From: an uncultured Bacteroidales bacterium
Lineage (GTDB): Bacteria > Bacteroidota > Bacteroidia > Bacteroidales > UBA932
Assembly: GCA_934691625.1 (NCBI GenBank)
Contig: CAKUTA010000015.1
Coordinates: 1 to 56,400, forward strand
DNA: 56,400 nucleotides
Direction of reading: 5' to 3'
The position numbers and the translations under genes were made by a program. Below are positions 3,532 through 37,239 of the stretch, one piece after another. Every line of letters begins with the position of its first letter. Position 1 is the stretch's first letter. Below the pieces are notes generated by a model, which was not told where the DNA came from, searched no databases, and was given only the letters and a program-made list of their open reading frames with translations.

Positions 3532-6500
3532 ATGATGACTGACAGGATATACTTGATGATGGCATGTCTGCCGCTGCTTCTTGCGGGCTGCGTCAGGGAG
3601 GCTCCGTGTGATGATTCCGCAGAAAAGACACTTATACGCCTTTCCGGGGATATTCCGGAGGTATATCAGACCAGGGCTGATGCCAAAGGGTTTACTGATG
3701 GCGACAGAATCGGTGTCTATGTCGTTGACTATGATAAGGATACCCCTGGGGAGCTGAAAAATGACGGGAACCGTGCGGATAATATGTGGCTGGAGTTCAA
3801 AGCCGGCAGCCGTTCATGGACAGCCGCTCATGACATATACTGGAAAGACAGCCATACCCATGCGGATATATACGGGTACTACCCGTATACATCGATAGCC
3901 GATGTGTCGGCGCAGCCTTTCGAGGTACGCAGGAACCAGTCTGAAGAAGCCATATCCGGAGGACTTTCCGGGTATGAGGCATCTGATTTTCTCTGGGGCA
4001 AGGCAGGAGATGTGGCTCCGACGTCTGATGTGGTGCCGATATCGTTCTCGCACAGGCTTTCCATGATACATGTCGCGCTGGCGGAGGGCACCGGATTCGC
4101 GTCCGGAGAATGGGATGATGCCGGAAAGTCTGTCCTTATAACGGGGGTATGCCGGGAGGCAAATATTGACATCGCCACTGGAACGGCTTATGCGAAAGGG
4201 ACTCCTGACGGCTCAGGAATAATCCCTTATGGACAGGACGGAGAATGGAAGGCGATTGTCGTGCCGCAGACTGTGGGGGCAGGCATCCCGATTGTAAGCA
4301 TCACAATGGACGGGCGTCCTTATAAGTTCAGCCGTGATGAGGATTTTACGTTCGTGCCGTCCAGACAGCATAACTTCACGATAACGGTAAATAAGAAGCC
4401 TGACGGGGATTTCGAGTTTATTCCTGATGAAGGCGGCATATCGGCATGGAACAGCGACCAGTCCCAGTATGGCGGTACTGCGAAGGAGTATGTGGTCATA
4501 GATGTGCCCGAGGCTGGCACTCTGGACAAGTGCGTGAAGTCTTCGGGAAAGGAGCTGGATAAGATCCGTAGTCTGAAGGTTACTGGGAAGATAAATTCCA
4601 GGGACTTCGCAGTGATGAAGTACAAGATGACTTACCTTACGTCGTTAAATCTTAAGGAAGTGGTTATTGTCAATGGCAAGTCTGGATATCTAGATAATTC
4701 AGGTTATAACTCCAACGGCGATTATTGTATTCCGGACAATGCTTTTGAAAAAAAGGAATCATTGATTTCAATAATCCTTCCTGATAAGCTGAAATCTATC
4801 GGATGGAAGGCATTTGGTGACTGCAAGTCATTGTCCGGAAACATCTCGTTTCCGGAGGGGCTGGAAACAATCGCGGGCGGGGCATTTATAAATTGTGTGA
4901 ATCTCTCGTCAATATCTCTTCCCTCAACTTTGATTACTCTCGGTCGGGAAAGCGGCATGGCTTATTATGATGGTGCTTTCGGACATTGTACAGGTCTATG
5001 CTGCGAGCTTGTGATTCCAGAAAAGATAGAGACGATAGGTATCGGTACTTTTTATGGCGATAGTGGGCTGTATGGGCAGATACGTCTGCCGGAATCATTG
5101 CATTTTCTTGGCGAAGCTGCATTTCGTGGCTGCAATGGCTTAAACGGCTCTCTGAAAATTCCTCATGGTATAAGCTATATTCCTGACGAATGTTTTGGAT
5201 ATTGCGGATTTGACGGGACACTGACTCTTCATGATGGGATTACTTCAATCGGTATCAGGGCTTTTGTTGAATGTCCTTTCAGAGGAGAGCTCTCGTTGCC
5301 TTCTGGACTTGAAGTCATTTCAGAGGAGTGCTTCAGGTCTTGTAAATTCAGTGGTCGCCTTGTGCTTCCGGAGGGCGTAAGAGTTATCGGCAAAAGGGCA
5401 TTTGCCTGGAATTCACGTCTTGCCGGTATGCTGGAAATTCCCGGCAATGTCATAAGCCTTGGTGCCGGGGCGTTTGCCAACTGCCAGGGAATAGAAGGTG
5501 TGGTCATACCGGAAAGTCTGGAGACAATCAAGTCGGAATTCGGAGTCTATGGGACATTCGAGGACTGCTTCGGAATAAACCGGATAGTATGCAAGGGCAT
5601 TACTCCACCCGTTATCACTGACAATTTTAACGTGACGGGCGGGCATTCAGTATTCGGTGGAGTGTCCAAGGAAAACTTTACCGTTGAGGTTCCTGATGCT
5701 GCAGTCCCGAATTATCGCACTGCAACTGGCTGGAAGGACTTCAGTCGTATTTCCGCCTACAGGAATCTTTCTGTGGAGCCGCATACAGCTACGGCGATCA
5801 ATACTAAGGTGACAAGGGGCTTCATGCTTTATGCGGATGACGAGTGGGAGGTGGAGGAGCAGCCTGGCTGGGTGACATTGAGCCGGACTTCAGGAAAAGG
5901 CAGGACTCCGATGCAGCTGACATTCTCCAGGATGCCGTCTGGTACTGTCCGTGACGGTAAGGTGGTATTCCGCCTGAAAGGCCAGGACTACCGTGTGACT
6001 ATGGACGTGCACCAGTATGACTATGCACATGAGGAGGATGAAATCATTGAACTTCAGAAGGCTGCGAAAGGCAGGGGTGTGAATGTCGTGCTGCTTGGTG
6101 ACGGGTATGATGCGAAAGGTATCAGTGATGGGAAGCTGCTTGCCGACATGAACGAGGCTATGGAGGATTTCTTCGCTATCGAACCTTACAGGACATACCG
6201 GGATTATTTCAATGTTTATACCGGCATTGCGGTATCGCCCGAATCCGGTGTCGGGAATGTCAATACCGTAGTGGACAACCGTTTCGGTACTTCGGCAAGG
6301 CGTGGGGTCCTGGCCGGGGCATCGGATGAGATCCTGGAGTACGCATGCAGGATGCCTTCCGTGGACAGGGACAATCTCGGGCAGACATTGATTGTCATTG
6401 TCCCGAACACATCCGACTATGGCAGTGTCACCAGCCTATATGATGACGGGACGGCAATATCTTATTGTCCGAAACGTGACGATGACTATCCTTACGATTT

Positions 6501-7035
6501 CAGGGGCATTGTTCAGCATGAGGCTGGCGGGCATGGATTCGGGAAACTTGGTGACGAGAGCATCTGGCACAATGCCTTTATAGATGCGTGCAGCTGCTCG
6601 TGCTGTGCTCATGTGGCTGAGATTAATGCTGCACAGGCTAAAGGCTGGTATCAGAACATCTCGCTCTCGGCCAGGGAGGATGCTGTGCCTTGGAGTCATC
6701 TTATGGGCAATGACGGGTACCGTAATCTTGTGGATATATATGAGGGCGCATCCGGGCATAGCAGGGGGGTCTGGCGCTCTGAGTATAACAGCTGTATGAA
6801 CAATTACATCCCGTACTACAATACTGTCAGCCGTGAAGCTATCGTGAAGCGGATAATGCAGTATGCCGGAGAGGAATACAGCTTCGAGGATTTCGTAGCG
6901 AATGACAAGGTGGAGAATGAGCCGGATACCGCGAATAAGGGGAAGTCGGCCAGGAAGTACTCGGTTTCAGGATGGGGCAATGCAGAACACCATTCTCCTG
7001 TATTCATGGGAAGACGGAATAACGTGGACAGATGA
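3532..7035 (+). CDS. fimbrillin-LRR-BACON-M64 zinc peptidase lipoprotein
   Basis: A 1167-residue multidomain surface lipoprotein (lipobox LLAGC). In order: a fimbrillin-like domain (about residues 30-310; ASDFLWGKAGD and FSHRLSMIHV); BspA-type leucine-rich repeats (about 330-720, repeated LPEGLETIAGGAFINC-like units); a BACON-like domain (about 755-850, ending in VHQYD); and an M64 (IgA-peptidase family) zinc metallopeptidase (about 855-1120). The zinc site is HEAGGH (H996, E997, H1001) followed by GFGKLGDE, and the C-terminal NSCMNNY and VSREAIVKRIM segments also fit M64. Likely anchored outside the cell, where the LRR and BACON parts bind and the peptidase cuts glycoproteins. The target is unknown. 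Confidence 0.85.
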   Translation: MMTDRIYLMMACLPLLLAGCVREAPCDDSAEKTLIRLSGDIPEVYQTRADAKGFTDGDRIGVYVVDYDKDTPGELKNDGNRADNMWLEFKAGSRSWTAAHDIYWKDSHTHADIYGYYPYTSIADVSAQPFEVRRNQSEEAISGGLSGYEASDFLWGKAGDVAPTSDVVPISFSHRLSMIHVALAEGTGFASGEWDDAGKSVLITGVCREANIDIATGTAYAKGTPDGSGIIPYGQDGEWKAIVVPQTVGAGIPIVSITMDGRPYKFSRDEDFTFVPSRQHNFTITVNKKPDGDFEFIPDEGGISAWNSDQSQYGGTAKEYVVIDVPEAGTLDKCVKSSGKELDKIRSLKVTGKINSRDFAVMKYKMTYLTSLNLKEVVIVNGKSGYLDNSGYNSNGDYCIPDNAFEKKESLISIILPDKLKSIGWKAFGDCKSLSGNISFPEGLETIAGGAFINCVNLSSISLPSTLITLGRESGMAYYDGAFGHCTGLCCELVIPEKIETIGIGTFYGDSGLYGQIRLPESLHFLGEAAFRGCNGLNGSLKIPHGISYIPDECFGYCGFDGTLTLHDGITSIGIRAFVECPFRGELSLPSGLEVISEECFRSCKFSGRLVLPEGVRVIGKRAFAWNSRLAGMLEIPGNVISLGAGAFANCQGIEGVVIPESLETIKSEFGVYGTFEDCFGINRIVCKGITPPVITDNFNVTGGHSVFGGVSKENFTVEVPDAAVPNYRTATGWKDFSRISAYRNLSVEPHTATAINTKVTRGFMLYADDEWEVEEQPGWVTLSRTSGKGRTPMQLTFSRMPSGTVRDGKVVFRLKGQDYRVTMDVHQYDYAHEEDEIIELQKAAKGRGVNVVLLGDGYDAKGISDGKLLADMNEAMEDFFAIEPYRTYRDYFNVYTGIAVSPESGVGNVNTVVDNRFGTSARRGVLAGASDEILEYACRMPSVDRDNLGQTLIVIVPNTSDYGSVTSLYDDGTAISYCPKRDDDYPYDFRGIVQHEAGGHGFGKLGDESIWHNAFIDACSCSCCAHVAEINAAQAKGWYQNISLSAREDAVPWSHLMGNDGYRNLVDIYEGASGHSRGVWRSEYNSCMNNYIPYYNTVSREAIVKRIMQYAGEEYSFEDFVANDKVENEPDTANKGKSARKYSVSGWGNAEHHSPVFMGRRNNVDR

Positions 7036-8080: not shown

Positions 8081-9142
8081 ATGACCAATAACTATTGGAT
8101 GCACCGCATAACTTGCGGAGAAAATGCATTTCCTTATGCACAGCATCTTTTCTTCGGCAGTGACAATGGCTCCGCTGAACATTATCTTTCTATAGGGTGG
8201 ACTGATTTCTCCTATGAAAAATTTGTCGAGGCTGTTCTGGCTGAAGGCATTTGTGCTCTTGATTCCTTGATGCAGGAGGCTTCTTACGGCTTGGGACGCA
8301 GCCGTTTCAGCCTTTACCGGTTCATTGCCCAGATGAAATGCGGAGACATTGTGGTGGTGCCGTTCTGGGACACTTTCAGCGTGTGCAGAATCGCGGATGA
8401 CAAGGTCTTGACGAACGAGACCATTGACAGAGGCCTGATGACTGACGGTGCAGGAAACAACCTGACCTATAATGATAAAGACAGATACTTTTATACACCT
8501 GACGGAAAGTTTGTCGATATGGGCTTCTACCGTAAGGTTGAGCTGCTGGCGACAGGCATTCCGCGTTCGGAATATGCTCCTCAGCTTCTTTATTCCGCGA
8601 TGAAGAACCGGAGCACCAATGCCTGCCTGTCAGAAAAGGTGGCAGAGGAGGTGGACATCGCCATCTCCGACTGGCACCGTAAGAAGCCGATTAACCTGAA
8701 GGCGGAGATTGAAAATGCAGTGGCACGGCCCGTCCTCGAACTGATAAGGAACCTTCTGCAGGACATGAAGTTTGAATCTCTGGTGGAATGGTACCTGACG
8801 TCTATCGGCGCGACTGTCGAGAGACCTGCCAGGAACGGCTGTCCTGCTGAAGACGGGGATGCTGACCTTATCGCCCATTTTGATGCACTCGAGACTACCG
8901 TCATGGTGCAAGTGAAGAAGCATGACGGATATACGGGAGACTGGGCTGTCAGACAGATTACCTCGTACTCTGAAAAGTATCATGTCAAGGATTTCATGAA
9001 CCAGATGTGGGTGATTTCCTCATGCGATGATTACAGTGATGCCGCCAGGCAGCTTGCCGAGGAGAAAGGTGTACGTCTCATCACCGGTCTGGAATTCTCC
9101 AGGATGCTCCTAGGCGTCGGAATAAAGAATCTAACTATTTAA
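8081..9142 (+). CDS. Mrr-like restriction endonuclease with N-terminal sensor-like domain
   Basis: 353 residues. The C-terminal third (about residues 240-345) fits the Mrr_cat nuclease fold: FESLVEWYLTSIGATVERP, then DGDADLIAHF with D262, then MVQVKKH with Q277 and K279, that is the D-(Q)xK version of the PD-(D/E)xK site found in Mrr enzymes. The N-terminal part (ITCGENAFPYAQHLF ... MKCGDIVVVPFW) resembles small PUA/EVE-like base-reading domains, an inference from pattern only. First gene of a plus-strand cluster reaching 14885. Likely cleaves modified or foreign DNA. Confidence 0.75.
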   Translation: MTNNYWMHRITCGENAFPYAQHLFFGSDNGSAEHYLSIGWTDFSYEKFVEAVLAEGICALDSLMQEASYGLGRSRFSLYRFIAQMKCGDIVVVPFWDTFSVCRIADDKVLTNETIDRGLMTDGAGNNLTYNDKDRYFYTPDGKFVDMGFYRKVELLATGIPRSEYAPQLLYSAMKNRSTNACLSEKVAEEVDIAISDWHRKKPINLKAEIENAVARPVLELIRNLLQDMKFESLVEWYLTSIGATVERPARNGCPAEDGDADLIAHFDALETTVMVQVKKHDGYTGDWAVRQITSYSEKYHVKDFMNQMWVISSCDDYSDAARQLAEEKGVRLITGLEFSRMLLGVGIKNLTI

Positions 9143-15646: not shown

Positions 15647-15671
15647 CAGAAGACTATGTGGAGGATTGAAC

Positions 15672-17210
15672 ATGTTGTACCCTATAGGAATACAAAGCTT
15701 TGCTGAAATACGCAATGGCAATTATGTTTATGTGGACAAGACAGCGCTGCTCTATAGACTGGCATCCACCGGAAAGTATTATTTCCTGAGCCGTCCGAGA
15801 CGGTTCGGGAAGAGCCTGCTTGTCTCGACTATGGAGGCGTACTTCAGTGGGGAGAGGGAACTTTTCAACGGGCTGGCGATGGAGCACCTGGAGAAAGACT
15901 GGGTGAAATACCCTGTCCTGCATCTTGATCTGACCGGAAGCGGATATACGGAGATTTCGCAGCTGAAGATAAGCCTGGATCAGCATCTGCGCAAATGGGA
16001 AGAACTTTATGGTGTGACGGCTGCGTCAGATGATGCCTCAGCCCGATTCAAGGATGTCATTGATGCCGCTTATCAGAAGACCGGCCAGAAAGCGGTCATC
16101 CTCATCGACGAATACGAGAAGCCTATCATCGACAACATTGACAATCCTGAACTGATGGAGCAGTTCCGTCGCGAGCTTCAGGGGTTCTACAGCGTCATAA
16201 AGGGAAAGGACGCCTCTATACGGTTCGCCTTCCTCACCGGTGTGACCAAGCTCGGAAAGATGAGCATCTTCAGCGGGCTGAACAATCTGAACGACATATC
16301 CATGGATTCCAGGTATGTTGATATATGTGGAATATCTGAACCTGAGCTCAGAAACATGTTCGGAGACAGCGTGGCAGCACTTGCTGAGGCGAATAAACTG
16401 ACAGAGGATGAGTGTTACCGGAAATTGGCGTCAATGTATGACGGCTATCATTTCTGTGAGGACAGCATAGGCATATATAATCCTTTCAGCCTGCTCAATA
16501 CGTTCAACTCCGGTAAGTTCCGCATGTACTGGTTCGAGACCGGGACGCCGACGTTCCTGGTGAGATACCTGAAGCAGGGAAACTATAACCTGGACAACAT
16601 ATCCAAGAATGATGTGGCGGTGGAGACATTGACGGGTGCGAACTATGTGAGCCCGGCCCCGATAACGCTTATGTACCAGGCCGGATATCTCACGATAAAA
16701 GAGTACAATCCGGAATTCGGGACTTATAATCTAGATTATCCTAACGAGGAAGTCAAGCGTGGGTTCATGCACTCGCTCAGCCTGCTGTTCGCTCCGGCCT
16801 TGATAGAAGGCAACTATTCTGTATATCAGTTTATCAGGGATCTCCGCGGAGGTGACACCAGGAGCTTCATGGATCGCCTCACGGCATTCTTCGCAGGGAA
16901 CAGCTATGAAATTCAGGGAGACCTGGAGCTGTACTTCCAGAATGTGATGTCGATAATGCTGAAGATGATGGGGCTTTACGTGAATACCGAGTATCAGACA
17001 TCCAACGGCAGGATAGACATTGTTTTCGATACGGACAAGTATGTCTACATAATAGAGCTGAAGCGTGACCAGTCGCCGGAAATCGCATTGAAGCAGATTG
17101 AAGAAAAGGGTTATGACAGGCCATTCCTGGCATCCGGCAAGCAGATAATCAAGCTCGGCATAAACTTCTCGTCCGACACCAAGACCATAGACGGCTGGGC
17201 GGAGGCATGA
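15672..17210 (+). CDS. AAA-ATPase-like protein with C-terminal PD-(D/E)xK nuclease domain
   Basis: 512 residues. The N-terminal AAA-ATPase_like region begins YPIGIQSFAEIRNGNYVYVD and has the Walker A variant SRPRRFGKSLL near residue 40 and a Walker B-like VILIDEYEKP. The C-terminus carries the associated nuclease domain (about 405-510; YVNTEYQTSNGRIDIVFD, then IIELKRD with the E-x-K pair). These proteins are very common and often multi-copy in Bacteroidales; their role is unproven, and links to mobile DNA or defence are suspected. The ATG at 15672 is chosen over TTG at 15666 because GGAGG (15660-15664) is correctly spaced only for it. Confidence 0.9.
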   Translation: MLYPIGIQSFAEIRNGNYVYVDKTALLYRLASTGKYYFLSRPRRFGKSLLVSTMEAYFSGERELFNGLAMEHLEKDWVKYPVLHLDLTGSGYTEISQLKISLDQHLRKWEELYGVTAASDDASARFKDVIDAAYQKTGQKAVILIDEYEKPIIDNIDNPELMEQFRRELQGFYSVIKGKDASIRFAFLTGVTKLGKMSIFSGLNNLNDISMDSRYVDICGISEPELRNMFGDSVAALAEANKLTEDECYRKLASMYDGYHFCEDSIGIYNPFSLLNTFNSGKFRMYWFETGTPTFLVRYLKQGNYNLDNISKNDVAVETLTGANYVSPAPITLMYQAGYLTIKEYNPEFGTYNLDYPNEEVKRGFMHSLSLLFAPALIEGNYSVYQFIRDLRGGDTRSFMDRLTAFFAGNSYEIQGDLELYFQNVMSIMLKMMGLYVNTEYQTSNGRIDIVFDTDKYVYIIELKRDQSPEIALKQIEEKGYDRPFLASGKQIIKLGINFSSDTKTIDGWAEA

Positions 17211-28718: not shown

Positions 28719-30344
28719 TCAAATGTTATCGGTTTTCCTCTCTGCCATGAGCGGCTTGCTGTTATCGTCGGGAATGAATATCCTCCCTATCAGTGCCTGA
28801 AAATTCTTGGTAATGCTGTTGGAGGACAGGTCCGCTTCACGAATGTTATATAGTTCGTGCAGCGTTTTGATGAACTCCTGCCTGAAACGTGAGTGCATCT
28901 TCCGTCTTGCCTGTTTCGTGTCTTTTCTCGCGACATAGGCATGGAGGATATACAGGAAATTGACCTCGAAGGTCATAAGTATCAATGTGTCACGGTCGAA
29001 CAACCTGTCCGTGAACTGAAAGCTGATGTCTCTCTTCTCATTGACCTTCAACTTCTTTAGTCTCAATGCTGATACATCGAACGCGTCTTCCTCGGATGCG
29101 AAGAAAGAACCCCGGATGAAGAAATTCGGGGTCGGGCAGTATCCCTCTGTTTCCGGGTCCCTGTATCGAAGACCGAGGTGCTCATATATGTCAGGATCCG
29201 TATATGACAAGCGGATGCATTCCTGGATGACGTTCCTTGCATAAGTGAATTGCTTGTATATCGATTCCCCGGATATGCAGTCCCCGTCAATGTAGTATTT
29301 GCTGTCTCCGATATAGTATATCTTGCTGCTGCCGAACGGGGCATTGTCACGATATATATGATCTATTACCTTGCCGTCTCTCTGTTCGCGCAGTCCATAT
29401 GGCAGTGTCTCAGGGCTGTCACTTATGATGCTGTCCACCATTGTCTCGAAAACGATATTGAAGTCTTTTGCCAGCAGAGCACCTTCGCGGGATTTACCTG
29501 TCTTTACATTCTCGCAATGCGAAAAGAACGTGTATAACAGATTCCACAATTGCACGAGCTCGTCCTTGAAATATCTCTTCCGGATGGACTTGAGTAGCCT
29601 CGTGCCTTTGCCTGTGGAGATCAATGATTCTATTCGTTCCGAGCTCAGGATGTTGTAAGACAATGCTGGCTGGATGTTGAATGCGAACTGTTCATTCAGA
29701 TAGTTCAGGACCGAATAGAACAGGACAATGAGCTGTTCGTCATAATCTATTGTCTTGCCTCTTCTTAATAAGGAAAAATAGAATGGCTGGTCATCGATGA
29801 AGTATGCCTGGGAATGGCTGATGGACTTGGACCAATGAACCTTGTTCCTGCCGCTGTTTGATATCAGGCTGATGTATGTCAAAAGAATCTGATGTTCCTT
29901 GTGAAAATCGATGAGAGATAATATTATGTCAATGAGCGTACATGTGCTGCTTCCATTCCTTGATGAGACGCTTTGAGCCTTTCCTGCGGCTGTCACTATC
30001 GTGGACTCCGGATTGTCCAGTATATATCTTCTGATTGCCTGGTATATCCAGATGGATATGCTGAATATGTTGTTTGAAAGTTTCTTGTCTAATGGCGAAT
30101 GACTTGTGATTGAAGTGAGTTCCGTTGTGCGGAATTTGCCGAAAGCCATCAGCTCCTTGCCATCTTTCTTCAGAAAGACCTTCGGCAGGATGAATACTGC
30201 ATCATTGACCTCCTCGGAGAAGAAATAGCCGACACCGCCTATGCAGGCCCGGCCGTCTGCCGCCGTGGCGAAATATCTATCCTGCAGTCCAATGTGTTTT
30301 ATGAACTGCGTATCATAGCATGCGTTTTCAAACAGTATTACCAT
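28719..30344 (-). CDS. LlaJI/McrC-like restriction endonuclease subunit
   Basis: 541 residues. It pairs with the McrB-like gene upstream on the same strand, and the stop/start junction is tight (30344). The N-terminal two thirds hold no motif I can name. The C-terminal part has a PD-(D/E)xK-like core (KVIDHIYRD, then IYYIGDSKYYI with D-x-K). Overall it matches what I recall of the LlaJI restriction endonuclease family (McrC-related R2 subunit). With the AAA partner it should cut unmethylated DNA, using nucleotide hydrolysis for translocation or assembly. Plain McrC is the alternative assignment. Confidence 0.75.
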   Translation of the reverse strand: MVILFENACYDTQFIKHIGLQDRYFATAADGRACIGGVGYFFSEEVNDAVFILPKVFLKKDGKELMAFGKFRTTELTSITSHSPLDKKLSNNIFSISIWIYQAIRRYILDNPESTIVTAAGKAQSVSSRNGSSTCTLIDIILSLIDFHKEHQILLTYISLISNSGRNKVHWSKSISHSQAYFIDDQPFYFSLLRRGKTIDYDEQLIVLFYSVLNYLNEQFAFNIQPALSYNILSSERIESLISTGKGTRLLKSIRKRYFKDELVQLWNLLYTFFSHCENVKTGKSREGALLAKDFNIVFETMVDSIISDSPETLPYGLREQRDGKVIDHIYRDNAPFGSSKIYYIGDSKYYIDGDCISGESIYKQFTYARNVIQECIRLSYTDPDIYEHLGLRYRDPETEGYCPTPNFFIRGSFFASEEDAFDVSALRLKKLKVNEKRDISFQFTDRLFDRDTLILMTFEVNFLYILHAYVARKDTKQARRKMHSRFRQEFIKTLHELYNIREADLSSNSITKNFQALIGRIFIPDDNSKPLMAERKTDNI

Positions 30345-31894
30345 TATTTAAGTGGCAGGACATTCAGACTGTACATGAAGCCGAGCAGCAGATCAGTTCC
30401 TCGTCCTGTGAACAGGTCATTGAACGAGAACTCTTCGGTTTCATATTCATCGATGTTCGACTTCATAATGGAATCCGGCATATTGTCAAGCTTTTTTCTG
30501 TCATTTTCATCGATGGACCGCATGAAATTCTGCTCTGTCATGTATTCATCTTTGCAGACTTCGCTCCACAGGTAGAACATGACCTTGCTCTTGAAGTCAT
30601 CTTCATCAATGCTTGATTTTATGAAGAAATTCCCGAGTTGCTTGTCTTCCGATTCTGTTACTCGGCGGATTCTTTCGTTCACTGCTTTGAGGAATTCTAT
30701 CCAGCCGAACTTATATGCCCCGATGGTTATGGTGAATCCTGATGATTCGGCGTTACTGTATTCAATAGGTACATATTCCCATTCCCATCTTCTTTTGAAG
30801 GCACTATCCATAGGGAACAACGACTGGTCCGATGTGTTCATCGTCGCGATTATGTGCAGATTGGACGGCAGTCTCAGCTTGCCGTCGACGAGTCCGTCCG
30901 GCCTGTTTTCCTGGTCAATGCCATTTTCATTGTGAAGCTTGCTCGTTATGTAGTCGGCCAGGTCCTTGTCCGGAGTTATCGGATATTCGGATTCACCATT
31001 ATCGTTTCTGTCAAGCAACTGGAAAAGATCTCCGAAGATCTGCGCACAGTTGCCTCGGTTGATTTCTTCAATGATCAGGTACACGTCCTTTCCTGGTTCT
31101 TTGTAGGCTTCGATGTAGGCATCTGTGAATGCCTGGGGTACAAATGTATAAGTGATCTTGTCTCCGTCTTTCTCCGGTTTGTACGATCCTACGAAGGTTG
31201 AATAGTCAGAGTCCGGGTGGAATGTGGTCCTGAATACTGTTTGTCCGGCGGTGGCCTCCTTGACTCTGTATGATTTGCCGCTTCCTGGTGTCCCGAAGTA
31301 TATCTTCTGGAGAGGGCTCTTTGTCTTTGTTGAAATCGTGGAGTTCAATAACTTGACCGATGCAGGATTCTCTCCAAAATATTTCCATAGCTCCGCAATG
31401 AATCCTTGTGAAGCATTTACAACATTTGCTATTGCTAAAATGGACGAGGTCAGACAATCATTTCTATCAAGTGTCTTGCCCGTTGAAGATGTTCCGCCAT
31501 TCCACCACTGTTGTTCTGTAGCAAATTTTATCAGGTAGTCCTTGTCAGTGCTGCTTAGCTCGGTATAATTGCCTATTAATGATATTATTTTATCATTGTC
31601 TTTCTCTTTTAAGTACTTGTCATCGACAATTTTGCGTAAGATGTTCCTGTATTCATTGAACGGAGCATACAGTGGAGAAAGCATTGATGCAATATAGAAC
31701 CATGTGTTGCTGATAAACGTCCTTTGGCCCTGCTGGTTTATTGCACAAGAATTAGTTGTTCCATATATGATAGTATTGCTGCCGATTCTTTTGACAGTGT
31801 CTTTGAAATCTGCAGGTAAAGTGCAATCCAACCTGTTGAACTCTCTTAAATTCTCCTGTATTGGCCTGACGAGTTTATTTAGATTTTGTAACAT
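30344..31894 (-). CDS. McrB-like AAA+ restriction subunit
   Basis: 516 residues from ATG 31894 (the frame opens with TTG at 31900). AAA+ motifs are classical for McrB: Walker A GTPGSGKS (about 201-208), Walker B YLIIEEINRGNCAQIFGDLF, sensor MNTSDQSLFPMDSAFKRRW. The N-terminal 190 residues would be the target-reading part and are not similar to anything I recognise. It should form the hexameric motor that activates the nuclease encoded next. Its start overlaps the end of the methyltransferase gene by 20 bp, so translation probably depends on methyltransferase translation. Confidence 0.9.
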   Translation of the reverse strand: MLQNLNKLVRPIQENLREFNRLDCTLPADFKDTVKRIGSNTIIYGTTNSCAINQQGQRTFISNTWFYIASMLSPLYAPFNEYRNILRKIVDDKYLKEKDNDKIISLIGNYTELSSTDKDYLIKFATEQQWWNGGTSSTGKTLDRNDCLTSSILAIANVVNASQGFIAELWKYFGENPASVKLLNSTISTKTKSPLQKIYFGTPGSGKSYRVKEATAGQTVFRTTFHPDSDYSTFVGSYKPEKDGDKITYTFVPQAFTDAYIEAYKEPGKDVYLIIEEINRGNCAQIFGDLFQLLDRNDNGESEYPITPDKDLADYITSKLHNENGIDQENRPDGLVDGKLRLPSNLHIIATMNTSDQSLFPMDSAFKRRWEWEYVPIEYSNAESSGFTITIGAYKFGWIEFLKAVNERIRRVTESEDKQLGNFFIKSSIDEDDFKSKVMFYLWSEVCKDEYMTEQNFMRSIDENDRKKLDNMPDSIMKSNIDEYETEEFSFNDLFTGRGTDLLLGFMYSLNVLPLK

Positions 31895-32999
31895 GTGCAA
31901 GCAGTTGATTGTTGATTTCTTTTGCTAGAGTCCTGACTACAGGTACAGCGACACTGTTTCCGAACTGATGGTAGGCTTCTTTCGAGGATACGACAATATG
32001 CATTTCCGGTAATTCGGCTCTATTGTTCTGATTGTTCTCAGCCTGTTTGTCTTGCCATCCATTACCTATGATTTTGTAACCTTGCAAGCGTCCTGCTTCT
32101 ACAGGAGTAAGTTTTCTCGGGTTTTTACCTGATTTTGACTGGTCTATAAGAATTTCGCTACCGTCTTTCCAATATCTTGCAGAGATGGTACTGCAATAGA
32201 TGCTGTCATCATTGAATAGAGCATATCCGAAACCTTTTCCATTTAGCCTATTGCGCTCTTTCCTTTTCTGATGTCCTATCCACATCTTGTCGCTTATGGT
32301 CATTTTTTCGGGAATTGTTTCCTTTGGTTCAAATATATCGCTTACATGTGTCTGGATACAGTTGCAGAGCTCGTCTTTAGAAAAAATCGGATTCATGTCA
32401 GGGCAAAGTCCTAACGGAAACTTGAAATCGTCCACTTGTATCTGATTCTTATCCCAACATACAAAGAATAACCTTTCTCTGTTTTGTGGTACACCGAAAT
32501 ATTTTGCATTCAACACCATTGTTCTAGTTTCATATTTTAAGTCATCTTGCAAAACATTTATCAGTGTTTCAAATGTATCCCCATGCATGTGGTTCTTTAA
32601 TCCTTTTACATTTTCCAGCAAAAGAACTTTAGGCTTCTTGTGATGTTCTGTCTTATACTTTACGATATTTGCGATATTGAAGAAAAGGGTCCCACGTGTG
32701 TCTTCAAATCCTTTTCTAAGTCCAGCTATTGAAAATGGCTGGCAAGGGAACCCAGCACAAAGTATATCGAAATCGGGTATGTCTTCTAGTCTTGCACCAT
32801 TTATGTCTTCATTGAAAAATAGATAGTCGCCGGCTAGATTTTTCTCGAATAATTCAGGGTCGGAGTCTTTGAAGTTCTCTTCATATGTTATTCTTGCGTT
32901 CTTGTCCCATTCACTGGCAAATACGCATTTTGCCCCAATGCTGTTGAATGCATAATGAAATCCACCTATCCCGGCAAATAGGTCAATAAATAAGGGCCA
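31875..32999 (-). pseudogene. m5C DNA methyltransferase body, start codon switched away (phase OFF)
   Basis: Open on the minus strand from 32999 to the stop at 31875, with all C5-cytosine methyltransferase motifs: I IDLFAGIGGFHYAF, IV LCAGFPCQPFS (catalytic Cys), VI LLENVKG, VIII near ENNQ/RYWKDGS and the late RLQGYKI and QFGNSVAVPVV. It lacks an in-frame ATG: a TAG (33002-33000) lies just before the first codons and no start codon precedes motif I. The missing start MPNKRLTFID lies inverted at 33070-33100. Flipping the segment restores 378 codons in frame. It is not a dead gene but an OFF-phase one, by inference. Confidence 0.85.
32981..32991 (+). repeat. left inverted repeat of the invertible segment
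   Basis: GGTCAATAAAT, the exact reverse complement of 33090-33100. It lies inside the methyltransferase frame (codons for FIDL). Confidence 0.85.
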
Positions 33000-33010
33000 C
33001 TAACCTCTGA

Positions 33011-33042
33011 GTTGTAAGATTATGAAAAAGGCTGTATATTTA
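33011..33042 (+). promoter_or_regulatory. promoter-like sequence within the invertible segment
   Basis: GTTG (33011-33014) and TATATTTA (33035-33042) match the -33 TTTG and -7 TAnnTTTG elements with one mismatch each and a spacing of 20 bp. It points to the ATG at 33070. In the present orientation it would transcribe antisense into the recombinase gene. Confidence 0.5.
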
Positions 33043-33069
33043 CAGAGATTTAAAAGCAAGCAAGATATT

Positions 33070-33138
33070 ATGCCAAATAAACGGTTGACATTTATTGACC
33101 CTTTTCTGTCCCGTCCATACGCGCTAGAAATCGCATGA
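33070..33138 (+). other. detached 5' end of the methyltransferase gene
   Basis: ATG at 33070 opens MPNKRLTFID, the expected N-terminus of the methyltransferase, then leaves the invertible segment and runs into antisense recombinase sequence, ending at TGA (33136-33138) after 22 codons. As it stands it can only give a short meaningless peptide. Confidence 0.75.
33090..33100 (+). repeat. right inverted repeat of the invertible segment
   Basis: ATTTATTGACC, the exact reverse complement of 32981-32991. It covers codons TFID of the detached methyltransferase start and, on the other strand, the stop codon of the recombinase. Confidence 0.85.
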
Positions 33139-33709
33139 GTGTCTTCCTGTCCACTTGGCATGTCTCTGCTATTTTCCGGTATGAAATGCCGGAGCCGATC
33201 ATTGAAAGAATCATATCCTTCTTATGGTAAAGTTTCAGTTTGACGAGAGCATTGACGGATCCTGCAGGGCGCCCGAGAGTTATCCCCTCGGCCCTTTTGC
33301 GGGCGAGAGCTTCCTTTGTGCGTTGGCTGATGAGGTTACGTTCTATTTCTGCGGAAAGCCCGAAGGCGAAGGCGAGTACTTTGCTTGGAATGTCGTCTCC
33401 AAGGCGATATCCGTCCTTGATGGTCCATACTCTGCATCCGCGGCACATGCAGATGTTGAGTATTTCCATGATCATGAAAAGATTGCGGCCCAGCCTGGAC
33501 AGCTCGGAACAGATTATGAGATCTCCTTTATGGACTTTTCGGAGAAGTTTTCCGAGACGCCTGACCGACCAGTCCTTAGTTCCGCTGACTGTCTCTTCTA
33601 TCCATCCGTCGATGGATATGCCGGCTGTTTCGCAGAACTTGAGAATCTCGAATCTCTGGTTCTTGACAGTCTGCTTGTCACTGCTGACTCTGATGTATCC
33701 GTAGTTCAT
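33092..33709 (-). CDS. serine recombinase (DNA invertase/resolvase family)
   Basis: 205 residues. Catalytic domain (about 1-140): YIRVSSDKQ with the nucleophile S9, then ICSELSRLGRNLFMIMEIL (the conserved SRLGR) and AEIERNLISQRTKEALARKRAEG. A linker TLGRPAG leads to a C-terminal helix-turn-helix (SYRKIAETCQVDRKTLMRFL). The size and order match Pin/Hin-type invertases and Tn3-type resolvases. It lies directly next to a 120-bp segment bounded by inverted repeats, so local inversion is its likely job. It has a strong SD (GAGGAGG) and a TAATTTTG -7 box upstream. Confidence 0.95.
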   Translation of the reverse strand: MNYGYIRVSSDKQTVKNQRFEILKFCETAGISIDGWIEETVSGTKDWSVRRLGKLLRKVHKGDLIICSELSRLGRNLFMIMEILNICMCRGCRVWTIKDGYRLGDDIPSKVLAFAFGLSAEIERNLISQRTKEALARKRAEGITLGRPAGSVNALVKLKLYHKKDMILSMIGSGISYRKIAETCQVDRKTLMRFLARMDGTEKGQ

Positions 33710-33805: not shown

Positions 33806-34388
33806 ATGCAGGAAATATCACATTCGAAGCTTGTAGATGGGTATAGAAGGGCTTTCATCGATTCGGCGGTGGATGCGGAGCCGTCATGCACACCTCAGTT
33901 CGTGTCCAATTCCAATGGGAATAAGGTCCTTACCCAAATTGAGAATGAACTGCGGGGAATGCTCATCAATGTTCATGTCCGTGGCCTTCATTACGTCTGG
34001 TGGCATACAGCATCTGAAGGGCGTGCTTAAGGAGATGGAGTTGCGTGGTGTCCCAGGGAAGATATTGACTACAGACTATTTCTTGTTCAGTGAACCTGAG
34101 GCATTGGATGCTCTTTCCGGACTGAAGAACCTGGAGGTGAGGATGTACAGATCCTCCGGTACCGGTTTTCATACCAAGGGGTATCTGTTTCATAATGGCG
34201 AAGATATAAGGATCATTGTCGGTAGTTCTAATCTTACCCAGAATGCGATTACACGGAGTTTCGAGTGGAACACGAAAGTGATATCTACTGCAAATGGACA
34301 ATATGCCAAGGACATTGAATCGGAATTCAATGTGGCGTGGGAATCTTCTGTAAACTATGAGTTCTGCCGTGATGAATACCGGAGATGA
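33806..34388 (+). pseudogene. N-terminal phospholipase-D part of a broken helicase gene
   Basis: The gene starts at ATG 33806 (MQEISHSKLVDGYRRAFIDS). The reading frame shifts at a run of four Gs (33954-33957): with three Gs, ENELRECSSMFMSVAFITSGG would read through. The downstream frame carries a PLD-type motif HTKGYLFHNGEDIRIIVGSSN. It then stops at TGA (34386-34388), in the same frame as the helicase that follows. Both lesions are single events, so the decay is recent or, for the G run, possibly slippage or a sequencing error. Confidence 0.8.
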
Positions 34389-34418
34389 TACGGGGAGGTC
34401 AGGGCGCAGAAGCAGGCC

Positions 34419-36833
34419 TTGAACAAGATTGTTTCTTCGCTTGATTTGTCTTATTCAAAGGTGATCGAGCCGAATGAGATGCAGAAGAAATTCATGTCCG
34501 AGGTTGTCAGGCTGATTGAAGACGGGAAAAGAAGGGCGCTCCTTATTTCAGCCACGGGAACAGGCAAGACATATGCGGCGGCGTTTGCCGTAAGGCGGAT
34601 TTTTGCCAGCAGTCTTTTGCGCAAGAAGAAAGTATTGTTCCTATCTCATCGGGAGATGATAAATGTTCAGGCAGAGGCAAGCTTCAAGAGGGTCCTAGGA
34701 GAGTCGTTTCATACTGCACAACTGTCTGGGCACTGTCAAGATATGTCCAGAGTCGCATCTGCCGATATTGTATTTTCAACAATGAACATGATGGCCAAGG
34801 ATAGTATGCGCAATACTAATTTCAGCCGAGACGCCTTCTCTGTGATAATACTTGATGAGTGTCATCGTTCCGGGGCAGAGAGCTATCAGAAAATCATTGA
34901 CTATTTCATGCCGGATTTTCTTCTGGGAATGTCGGCCTCTCCGGACAGGACAGACGGATTTAATGTATATGAGTTCTTCGATTACAATATTGCATGTGAA
35001 ATCCGTCTCCAGACGGCTTTGGAAAATGACTTGCTATGCCCGTTCCATTATTTCGGAATACAGGATCTGAAAGTAGATGGCAGGCAGGTGGATGTAGGGG
35101 ACTTTTCGGATCTGACTTCAGAAGAGCGTGTCAAGAATATAGTCGATGTCGCTGAATATTACGGGTATAGCGGAGATAGAGTCCGAGGCCTGGTATTCTG
35201 CAGCAGTGTAGATGAAGCTCAGAAGCTATCTTCGATGTTCAACAGCATTGACAAGAAAGAATCCGGTCGGAAGTATAGGACATGGGCATTGTCGGGCGAC
35301 GATAATGAGAGTCTTAGACAGAAGGCTGTGGAGATGCTTGCTTCGGAGTCGGACAATCCGGATGAGATTTTGGATTATATCTTTACTGTGGATATATTCA
35401 ATGAGGGGGTTGATATTCCTGAAATCAATCAGGTGATCATGTTGAGGCCTACCAAGTCTGCAATCATTTTCGTTCAGCAGCTCGGCCGTGGTCTTAGAAA
35501 GGCTAAGGGGAAGGAATATGTTGTGGTGATGGACTTTATCGCCAATTACGATAATAATTATCTCATTCCTGTGGCGTTGTCAGGAGACAGGACGGGCAAT
35601 AAGGATAATATACGGAGATATTTGATAGAAGGTAATAATGTTATCAAAGGGGCCTCCACAATCTATTTCGATTCCGTGGCAAGGAAACGCATATTCGAGT
35701 CTATCGATAAAGCCCGTATCAACACCAGGAAGATTCTTCTGGAAAGCTACCGGCAGTTCAAGGAGAAGCTGAATTGTCGCCCAAGACTGACTGATTTCGA
35801 TAAATATGAGGAGATGGATCCGTTGAGGATTCTTTCTTATATGGATGGCGTACAGGAGTTCAAGAAACGTAAGATCTGCTCATATTATGGTTTCCTTGTC
35901 GCATTGGACGGGCTGGAAGAGACGTTGTCTGAGGCGGAGAACCATATCTTGGAATATGTCTCCCAGAAATTTGCTTCAGGTAAGCGGCTTAATGAGATAA
36001 TCATGCTGGAGATTCTTATGTCTGCGAAGGAAGACGAGGATGTCCTGGCAAGATGGAAAACAGAAATGACCAATGAACACCTTCTTGTGGGAGCTTACAC
36101 TGAACTGAATATCATAAGTCTGATGAATGGACAGTATTATAACTGTGGTTCTACTCCCGAGAGGTTCAGTGACTGTGTGTTTATAGAAGAGAAGAATGGC
36201 CGGCATCTGGTTTCAGGAATGTTCCTGATGGCCAGAAAGAATAAGAGTTTTTGTGATTACATGAGCGATTTGCTGCAATTCGCAAGAGGCCGCTATGATA
36301 AAAGCTATAGGCATGCTAAGGGGCAGAGCAGATATGGAGATGTCTTTATGGTCGGACAGAAATATACGTATGAGGATGTCATAAAGGCTCTTGATTTCGA
36401 AAGCAATAGCAGAATTTCTACAGTGTTCGGATATATGTATGATGAGAGGACAAAATCGTTTCCTGTTTTCGTTAATTATGATAAGGATGAAAATATCAGC
36501 GAGTCACAGAATTACAAGGACAGGTTCGTGGATCAGTCAACAATCATAACTGAGTCCAAGCATCCGCGGGATATGAGTTCTCCTGATGTCGTGACTGCAT
36601 TGAACAGTGTGGAGAAGAACGTGTCGATGTTATTGTTCGTGAGAAAAAACAAGAAAGATAAATCGACAACGCCGGAGTTTTATTATCTTGGCGCTATGGC
36701 TCATGTGCCTGGCGGGTATGTCAAGGAGGTTAAGAAGGAAAAGGCTTCTGACAATACTGTCGAGATCGAGTATAGGCTGGAGACGCCGGTGGAGAAGAAC
36801 TTGTATGATTATTTGATATCGGCTAATATATAA
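34419..36833 (+). CDS. SF2 DEAD-like helicase with DUF3427 (C-terminal part of broken gene)
   Basis: 804 residues counted from a TTG, but really the continuation of the gene from 33806 after an in-frame TGA. Helicase motifs: I SATGTGKT, II IILDECHRSG (DECH), III MSASPDRTDG, VI FVQQLGRGLRKAKG. The C-terminal third (from about residue 600) has DUF3427 features (KYTYEDVIKALDF, FGYMYDERTKSFPVFVNY, LLFVRKNKKDK). The full PLD-helicase-DUF3427 architecture is widespread and often lies in defence islands. A separate functional helicase would need re-initiation. Confidence 0.88.
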   Translation: MNKIVSSLDLSYSKVIEPNEMQKKFMSEVVRLIEDGKRRALLISATGTGKTYAAAFAVRRIFASSLLRKKKVLFLSHREMINVQAEASFKRVLGESFHTAQLSGHCQDMSRVASADIVFSTMNMMAKDSMRNTNFSRDAFSVIILDECHRSGAESYQKIIDYFMPDFLLGMSASPDRTDGFNVYEFFDYNIACEIRLQTALENDLLCPFHYFGIQDLKVDGRQVDVGDFSDLTSEERVKNIVDVAEYYGYSGDRVRGLVFCSSVDEAQKLSSMFNSIDKKESGRKYRTWALSGDDNESLRQKAVEMLASESDNPDEILDYIFTVDIFNEGVDIPEINQVIMLRPTKSAIIFVQQLGRGLRKAKGKEYVVVMDFIANYDNNYLIPVALSGDRTGNKDNIRRYLIEGNNVIKGASTIYFDSVARKRIFESIDKARINTRKILLESYRQFKEKLNCRPRLTDFDKYEEMDPLRILSYMDGVQEFKKRKICSYYGFLVALDGLEETLSEAENHILEYVSQKFASGKRLNEIIMLEILMSAKEDEDVLARWKTEMTNEHLLVGAYTELNIISLMNGQYYNCGSTPERFSDCVFIEEKNGRHLVSGMFLMARKNKSFCDYMSDLLQFARGRYDKSYRHAKGQSRYGDVFMVGQKYTYEDVIKALDFESNSRISTVFGYMYDERTKSFPVFVNYDKDENISESQNYKDRFVDQSTIITESKHPRDMSSPDVVTALNSVEKNVSMLLFVRKNKKDKSTTPEFYYLGAMAHVPGGYVKEVKKEKASDNTVEIEYRLETPVEKNLYDYLISANI

Positions 36834-36843
36834 TGATTTGAAT

Positions 36844-37239
36844 ATGAAGAAAATAAATGTGGTGGCGGCTGTGGTGGTCAAGGACGGACGAGTGTTTGCA
36901 ACGCAGCGTGGCTATGGCGAGTTTAAGGATGGATGGGAGTTTCCCGGAGGGAAAATCGAGGCGGGGGAGGTTCCCGAGGACGCGCTCCGGCGGGAAATCC
37001 GTGAGGAGCTTGAGACCGAGGTCAATGTCGGTGAGCTTATCGATACCATCGAGTATGACTATCCAGCCTTTCATCTGTCAATGCGCTGCTATGCATGCAG
37101 CATTGTGAAGGGGAATCTGCATCTTGTGGAGCATGAGGCTGCAAGATGGCTTTCTGTGGAGCAACTGGACGCTGTCAAGTGGCTTCCAGCTGATATAACA
37201 TTGATTCCAAAAGTGGCGGAGCTTCTGGGGAAGCGATAA
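36844..37239 (+). CDS. MutT-like Nudix pyrophosphohydrolase
   Basis: 131 residues, normal for MutT. The Nudix box is complete: GGKIEAGEVPEDALRREIR followed by EELETEV. N-terminal VVAAVVVKDGRVFATQRGYGEFKDGWEFPGG and late WLPADI are also typical. Hydrolyses nucleoside triphosphates, probably oxidised ones such as 8-oxo-dGTP. It begins 10 bp after the helicase stop; this helicase-MutT pairing is common. ATG 36844 is preferred to TTG 36838. Confidence 0.93.
   Translation: MKKINVVAAVVVKDGRVFATQRGYGEFKDGWEFPGGKIEAGEVPEDALRREIREELETEVNVGELIDTIEYDYPAFHLSMRCYACSIVKGNLHLVEHEAARWLSVEQLDAVKWLPADITLIPKVAELLGKR

Follow-up and report, generated by a model that had tools for sequence, protein, structure and literature searches.

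Positions 32981-33100 of the DNA analyzed here, a window of 56,400 nucleotides from an uncultured Bacteroidales bacterium (contig CAKUTA010000015.1, GenBank assembly GCA_934691625.1), very probably form an invertible start cassette, in which an adjacently encoded DNA invertase of the Mpi family would move the start codon of a 5-methylcytosine (m5C) DNA methyltransferase (MTase) onto or away from its gene. In the window this cassette reads as OFF. The window DNA appears to be chromosomal and of Bacteroidales origin, and by its LpxB-like protein (63-64% identity) the nearest among 393 genomes of the order that were searched are G004 and G013, which belong to one large genus. The elements from which the switch would be built are as follows.

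32981 to 32991, plus strand: left repeat arm GGTCAATAAAT, whose minus strand encodes FID(L), the start of MTase motif I
32992 to 33089, strand unassigned: putative invertible segment of 98 bp, in the orientation reading as OFF (in-silico inversion)
33011 to 33042, plus strand: promoter-like element (GTTG, 20 nt, TATATTTA), overlapping a sigma-70-like TTGTAA-17-TATATT
33070 to 33100, plus strand: displaced start of the MTase (ATG, MPNKRLTFID(L)), which in the present orientation lies on the strand opposite to the gene
33090 to 33100, minus strand: right repeat arm ATTTATTGACC, whose minus strand GGT CAA TAA AT encodes Gly-Gln-stop of the recombinase
33092 to 33709, minus strand: serine DNA invertase of the Mpi family with an open frame of 205 aa (NCBIfam NF009949; Resolvase 1.3e-31)
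31875 to 32999, minus strand: m5C MTase body without a start codon, 374 codons (Pfam DNA_methylase 2.2e-76; HhaI in PDB 3.3e-51)

The original prediction, made from the letters of the DNA, described a start-less MTase body with a TAG just before it, an 11-bp perfect inverted repeat flanking 98 bp, and an ATG followed by the codons MPNKRLTFID on the opposite strand, and all of these were found again when frame and repeat were read directly and by script. The MTase frame is closed upstream by the TAG at 33002-33000 and stays open to 31875, and the first ATG, GTG or TTG within it is a TTG at residue 127, downstream of both motif I (FAGIGG), which begins at residue 8, and the GFPCQPFS loop, which begins at residue 83 (motif names and numbers as customary). 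When positions 32981-33100 are inverted in silico, the start-less gene acquires an in-frame ATG and a length of 378 codons, as had been predicted, with the right arm supplying the codons of T-F-I-D in the ON orientation; an alternative in-frame ATG, at 33022, would give 394 codons. The segment is bounded by inverted repeats whose inversion alters a coding sequence, and the N-terminus so restored, said at the outset to be typical of such enzymes, recurs in a relative: MPNKRLTFID is also the N-terminus of P0001, the closest of 120 homologues listed (378 aa, 84% identity), and the first 48 residues of P0001 are identical to those of the inverted MTase.

This coding consequence is specific to the repeat in question. 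The whole window has 64 perfect inverted pairs of at least 9 bp with spacers of 40-300 nt, and inversion opens a new frame that starts with ATG and extends over 250 aa or more for one of them, the 32981/33090 pair. The 11-mer arm has two exact copies in the window and none further with up to one mismatch, and the arms can be extended to 16 nt at 88% complementarity.

The adjacent recombinase is predicted to be a DNA-inverting enzyme, as its score against NF009949 ('master DNA invertase Mpi family') is 315.1 bits, above the curated cut-off of 272. That it ends inside the right repeat, as the original prediction had it, follows from the position of its stop codon within the 33090-33100 arm, and hence its own coding sequence would be unchanged by inversion. 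The site is dual-coded: GGT CAA TAA AT forms the end of the invertase gene, and read as its reverse complement in the ON state it supplies the Phe-Ile-Asp codons of MTase motif I. Accordingly worded tails recur among relatives: 24 of the 27 closest recombinases among the matches listed (P0150-P0176, the window's included) end in GQ and three in GR, versus one GQ and two GR among the next 93 listed.

A second instance was found in G858:C81 (locus L118), a contig that came from the genus draw around G004. Its gene order is that of the window, comprising a Nudix gene, a type IV restriction gene, an invertase (69% identical to the window's) and a start-less m5C MTase. The 11-bp arms, GGTCGATAAAT and ATTTATCGACC, enclose a spacer of 145 nt that carries, reversed, the ATG of MAKKQLTFID; the near arm GGTCGATAAAT begins at the second base 3' of the invertase stop, and the far arm ATTTATCGACC runs into FIDLFAGAGGLSEGFIKA, motif I (FIDLFAGAGG) of another m5C MTase subfamily, without a start. 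Both arms bear the same change relative to those of the window and the MTase still encodes Ile, a match that is expected if selection or inversion keeps the two arms alike. The L118 invertase itself ends just before its variant site, GGTCGATAA, to which the GR tails mentioned above may correspond. Together with the P0001 N-terminus and the Mpi score, this co-varied repeat supports the invertible-start interpretation first proposed from the window, and it is the only such case: an m5C motif I within 3 kb downstream of the invertase was seen at L118 alone among 107 invertase loci scanned, some of which duplicate the same place and many of which end soon after the invertase. A one-mismatch match to the site pattern in G858 had no partner arm.

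Relatives of the invertase are widespread, a DNA query of invertase, segment and MTase matching 75 of 360 genomes of the G004 genus, mainly through its invertase part. Perfect inverted arms of at least 17 bp starting between -3 and +35 nt from the invertase's own stop occur in 6 of 29 relatives, compared with 8 of 287 control positions of the same loci, which suggests that such invertases often carry a site abutting their stop codon (the relatives are those with at least 1.8 kb downstream among the first 43 invertase loci, 40 later loci being left out). The long frames beside the invertase match Eco57I-type methylases in all seven cases scanned (L026, L027, L038, L075, L076, L089, L091), with a TaqI_C specificity domain in four of them, and of the annotated plasmid records inspected, two out of six (those of Prevotella nigrescens and Lactococcus cremoris) have a methylase neighbour; by these counts Mpi-type relatives repeatedly, and not always, adjoin DNA-modification genes. 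Inversion in silico of eight repeat pairs beside relatives' invertases gave no further start switch and altered methylase-like frames in L075, L076 and L088. Inverted arms near the invertase stop beside Eco57I-type methylases were also noted in L026, L027, L038, L076, L089 and L091, where specificity shuffling is likely, and similar arms near the invertase stop in L074. Contigs end inside the invertase, or within about 700 nt after it, in 17 of 57 entries, a count taken with no control (L078, L079, L080, L084, L086, L092, L103, L114, L118-L122, L126, L128, L132, L136); such breaks are expected if variable repeats break assemblies.

The genes on either side of the switch are the following.

30344 to 31900, minus strand: McrB-like AAA subunit (AAA_5 2e-10; McrB-type structures from 6.3e-12), its start overlapping the MTase stop
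28719 to 30344, minus strand: LlaJI-family restriction endonuclease subunit (RE_LlaJI 27.6 bits, cut-off 23.6), its ATG overlapping the McrB-like stop
33806 to 36833, plus strand: SauUSI-like type IV (methyl-directed) restriction gene, broken, with PLD, helicase and DUF3427 regions matched piecewise
36838 to 37239, plus strand: MutT/Nudix hydrolase (PADLOC PDC-S07 8.6e-50; TIGR00586 96.3 bits, below the cut-off of 97.9)

Along the minus strand from 33709 to 28719 the order is invertase, 98-bp segment, MTase body, McrB-like gene and LlaJI-family subunit. Since the McrB-like gene overlaps the end of the MTase gene and the LlaJI-like gene that of the McrB-like gene, loss of MTase translation and transcription should silence restriction. 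The designation 'LlaJI-like' in the original prediction holds for the RE_LlaJI subunit and the McrB-type, nucleotide-hydrolyzing AAA subunit, and fails for the modification part, in that LlaJI has two m5C MTases and the scanned genes here contain one: no second m5C MTase was found among the adjacent genes scanned or 10 other long frames of the window. The gene content of one m5C MTase, a McrB-like subunit and a nuclease is that of PcaRCI-type systems.

In the mechanism that we envisage, the invertase would flip the cassette such that the MTase gains or loses its start codon and probably its promoter too. In the ON state the cassette would give ATG-MPNKRLTFID to the MTase, 378 residues long, and co-expression would extend to the overlapping genes for the McrB-like and LlaJI-like subunits. 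In the OFF state any MTase product could be no more than a fragment without motif I and the PCQ loop, and the promoter-like element would face away; restriction would be silenced along with modification, failing which the host would cut its own DNA. The repeats, the restored coding sequence and the gene order are read from the DNA, as are the second instance and the cassettes described below, and from them we infer the role of the invertase, ongoing flipping, the two expression states and their purpose.

That purpose may lie in the genes on the other side of the invertase. The type IV and Nudix genes are divergent from the invertase in both the window and L118 (53% and 66% identity between the two loci, respectively), and they adjoin each other also in three loci of the Fibrobacter order, L161, L162 and L002. 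In the window, piece 34419-36833 matches PDB 7clg ('putative helicase', 6.3e-141; presumably SauUSI), DUF3427 and PADLOC mREase_IV (8e-150), and piece 33837-34388 matches PLDc_2 and PADLOC mREase_IV (2.6e-27); the PLD, helicase and DUF3427 regions of a SauUSI-type enzyme all match here but do not share one open frame. The type IV gene is a single open frame in L161, L162, L002 and L118, that of L118 being 1001 aa long with a PADLOC mREase_IV match of 8.9e-211. The composite locus would pair an m5C-writing system with a SauUSI-like enzyme whose expected target is m5C DNA, and the role of inversion would be to prevent their joint expression.

The Fibrobacter-order loci, from three genomes, contain invertase, Nudix and type IV genes (979 aa in L161, 966 aa in L162 and 991 aa in L002) followed by a divergent MTase, a McrB-like gene and a second restriction subunit, which matches RE_LlaJI in L161 and L162 and PADLOC REase_II in L002. 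Between the type IV gene and the MTase lies a cassette bounded by AAACGTTC and GAACGTTT, AACGTTC being similar to Mpi sites:

L161, 4966 to 6161: cassette of 1196 bp
L162, 5273 to 6310: cassette of 1038 bp
L002, 4779 to 5971: cassette of 1193 bp

The L161 and L002 cassettes align in the same sense. Positions 1027-1196 of the L161 cassette align to 176-1 of that of L162 at 76.8%, and positions 1-31 to 1038-1008 at 100%, so that L162 has its cassette ends in the opposite orientation to those of L161 and L002, and the outer genes are unmoved. One end bears an inward TTGACA-17-TATATT in all three genomes. The other carries a conserved TTGTGTTCAAAGAAAAGGAACGTTT; this end is turned toward the MTase in L162 and toward the type IV gene in the other two genomes, and it may supply a promoter and ribosome site; a sigma-70 scan of this end found no match. 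The MTase ATG sits just outside the site and the cassette lacks the MTase start codon. Of 12 Fibrobacter MTase loci, three have the site, starting 43 nt upstream of the DLFAG codons, and these are the three that also yielded type IV and invertase genes. As to cargo, the L161 and L002 cassettes contain PDDEXK_2 genes and that of L162 another open reading frame without a Pfam match. One cassette end would be swapped between both operons in Fibrobacter, and the MTase start would be moved in the Bacteroidales. This would amount to two architectures served by Mpi-type invertases, a promoter/ribosome-site cassette in Fibrobacter and a start-codon cassette in the window and L118.

A wider reading, prompted by the recurrence of the pairing and by the Fibrobacter flip and about as likely as not, is that this family of switches allows one cell to possess two defenses hostile to each other. 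In one orientation the cell would express a restriction-modification (RM) system that writes m5C and cleaves unmethylated DNA; in the other this system would be silent, and a SauUSI-like enzyme cutting m5C DNA would be permitted or driven.

A related view would make the element mainly a promoter switch, with the start codon carried along. This is compatible with an invertible start cassette and differs from it in emphasis, and it appears possible, if rather unlikely. The promoter-like element of the segment points toward the displaced ATG, which is the ON direction, and the Fibrobacter cassette has its MTase ATG outside the site. In both the window and L118, however, the ATG and the first ten codons lie inside the segment, and translation would hence be switched whatever drives transcription. 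In the OFF orientation the promoter-like element faces the recombinase and the type IV gene, the latter 764 nt away, and any bearing on the type IV gene is speculation.

The two orientations of a start cassette would leave full-length and N-terminally truncated MTases among homologous proteins, and near-identical pairs of this kind exist (P0001/P0123 at 99.2%, P0004/P0076 at 99.4%, P0004/P0128 at 99.6%, P0019/P0125 at 98.1%), which at the protein level suggest that both orientations occur. Short forms (less than 330 aa) make up 6 of the 13 best matches, the window's included, and 9 of the 107 others (p = 0.0014, the split at 13 having been chosen after the list was viewed). At single loci, the window and L118 are both OFF and opposite cassette ends are seen only between Fibrobacter genomes. 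Close relatives of the MTase are rare in overlapping Bacteroidales genome sets, being present in 1 of 393 genomes of the order (E 1e-100), 2 of 398 of the family (1e-120) and 2 of 121 and 1 of 121 in two genus draws (1e-100), and they occur in 11 of 113 Fibrobacter-order genomes (1e-120). In genome contigs, a scan with exact peptides of the window MTase, which relatives like P0002 would escape, gave six loci, and a pattern search for the MTase in IMG/VR gave none. Plasmid and phage records (at least 5000) contain MTases of less than 60% identity; eight phage and seven plasmid DNA matches to parts of the query were obtained, and 15 plasmid records have invertase relatives. The gapped site pattern gave no match in IMG/VR, and the ungapped 16-mer gave 16 stretches there, none near a partner arm, an invertase motif or an MTase motif.

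Several candidates were set aside. Three site matches in G008, two in paralogous secreted-protein-like genes and the third near the locus end, had no partner arm. Four homologues that start with MHSVGGKC after motif I (P0084-P0086, P0088) were rejected as OFF forms and are likely a gene-calling effect, a judgement based on like Fibrobacter loci rather than on the DNA of these four: in the fetched loci of this kind the frame is open through motif I, and in five that lack an upstream in-frame ATG a GTG is available. The equal longest contigs (5373) of P0125, a short MTase, and P0223, an invertase, hint at one contig and may coincide by chance, and were unused as evidence. Two further oddities concern MTases: P0122 (367 aa, on a 1394-bp contig) joins an apparent N-terminal half of another m5C MTase to the C-terminal part of P0124 (99.6%) and may be a chimeric assembly or a domain exchange, and Parabacteroides phage PF672P1 (L093, 3873-5096) has an m5C MTase split over two frames.

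Several observations weigh against an invertible start cassette. When a 900-bp stretch was shuffled 1000 times, a perfect 11-bp pair with a spacer of up to 200 nt arose in 40 of the shuffles, and the repeat alone is therefore weak evidence; at least two matches to the 11-mer (up to one mismatch) arose in 31 of 100 window shuffles, and another 11-bp pair (32681/33097) overlaps the right arm. The promoter-like element is likewise weak evidence on its own, as about 0.28 such sites per 120-nt strand are expected by chance and a sigma-70 scan of the segment gave two sites versus a shuffle mean of 1.2, within noise. The refutation test named in the original prediction partly speaks against the switch: the matches listed contain no ON form of the window's sequence, the best full-length one being 84% identical, and P0121, identical to the window's protein, is a fragment of 237 aa that occurs on six contigs. 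Short MTase forms may also arise from frameshifts or gene calling, and near-identical ones exist for MTases without signs of a switch, such as P0135/P0015 (94.7%). The second instance likewise reads as OFF; its contig stops 25 codons into the MTase, whose stub of 20 residues reaches 15.1 bits, short of the Pfam cut-off of 22, and a PF00145 search of its genome found no match. Four of the six annotated plasmid relatives opened lack a methylase neighbour. The window's type IV gene has its N-terminal part in another frame, with an in-frame TGA at 34386-34388. In Fibrobacter the alignment of L161 with L162 is confined to the cassette ends, and because the cargo differs cassette replacement rivals simple inversion. 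The switch site is moreover absent from 9 of the 12 Fibrobacter MTase loci and from L004; in three of these nine no invertase or type IV match lay within 6-kb flanks, and in the remaining six about 1.5 kb was covered.

Some of these points would also fit a fossil switch, once invertible, in a lineage now locked in the OFF state with its island decaying, which we consider improbable. Such decay would account for the listing of the window's own sequence only as the fragment P0121 and for the frame change and stop in the neighboring type IV gene, but the invertase, McrB-like and LlaJI-like frames are all open, the arms are still identical over 11 bp and those of L118 have changed alike. A chance repeat beside a degraded MTase, the contrary case raised by the original prediction, or an assembly error is barely credible, for the repeat taken alone is indeed near chance but its coding consequence (one of 64 pairs, with exact in-frame restoration matching P0001 over 48 residues) is not, L118 is an independent case, and window-identical proteins occur on six contigs (MTase fragment) and three (invertase), which are possibly not independent of one another.

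RM systems and methyl-directed enzymes are mutually exclusive in one cell if their sites overlap, and to our knowledge there are few worked examples of genomes that keep both, PcaRCI/PcaRCII being one. If the invertible start cassette operates as proposed, a heritable and reversible flip would be a new solution to this problem, and incoming phage and plasmid DNA would meet opposite restriction in different groups of one clonal population. The dual-coded site, with an invertase tail of Gly-Gln/Arg-stop and FID of the MTase, offers a simple signature for finding more switches, and it carries a warning for annotation, as OFF copies resemble truncated MTases or pseudogenes.

The first reading of the window had not noticed the promoter-like element, the broken type IV gene, the Nudix gene, or the L118 and Fibrobacter switches. 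Elsewhere in the window there are a Mrr_cat restriction endonuclease-like gene (8081-9142; PADLOC PDC-S02 candidate), possibly a second defense gene, a predicted AAA-ATPase with a PDDEXK_9 nuclease domain (15666-17210), and a large protein combining fimbrillin-like, BspA leucine-rich repeat and M64 peptidase domains (3532-7035).

Known inversion-switched RM systems involve mostly the shuffling or switching of type I specificity genes. Chanin et al. in 2024 reportedly described inversions within genes, in which an inversion inside a reading frame alters the product. The latter is a general phenomenon, whereas the window has a particular start-cassette layout. Both inversion-controlled RM systems and within-gene inversions are established (PMC12632263, PMC11892184, PMC10939037), and control of RM by inversion is shared with the type I systems of Mycoplasma pulmonis, Bacteroides fragilis and pneumococcus (PMC11892184, PMC12632263, PMC4948785); in contrast to type I shuffling, the switch in the window would turn a type II m5C operon ON or OFF via its start codon. 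Mpi of B. fragilis belongs by name to the same NCBI invertase family (PMC4747536, PMC12632263) and differs in that the window site overlaps both the stop codon of the invertase and the MTase motif. No description of the window layout was found in the literature examined, which included no search aimed at a type IV/RM flip; invertible RM systems are already known, and this layout is a new form of them.

In its subunits the operon is similar to LlaJI of Lactococcus lactis, in which RE_LlaJI and McrB-like subunits are clustered with m5C modification, but LlaJI is plasmid-encoded and has two MTases and an asymmetric site (PMC1459862), compared with one MTase with its start on an invertible segment in the window. 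LlaJI recognizes GACGC/GCGTC, and the window system is likened to it by genes alone. With only one MTase, the window cluster resembles PcaRCI more than LlaJI. The PcaRCI/PcaRCII pair of Pectobacterium carotovorum has one Dcm-like m5C MTase with a McrB-like protein and a nuclease, and the cell also contains a methylation-dependent nuclease that conflicts with this system, as envisaged here (PMC8989522). It is the closest precedent for such a conflict, which is settled there by promoter methylation and involves an HNH nuclease, whereas in the window it would be settled by DNA inversion and would involve a SauUSI-like partner.
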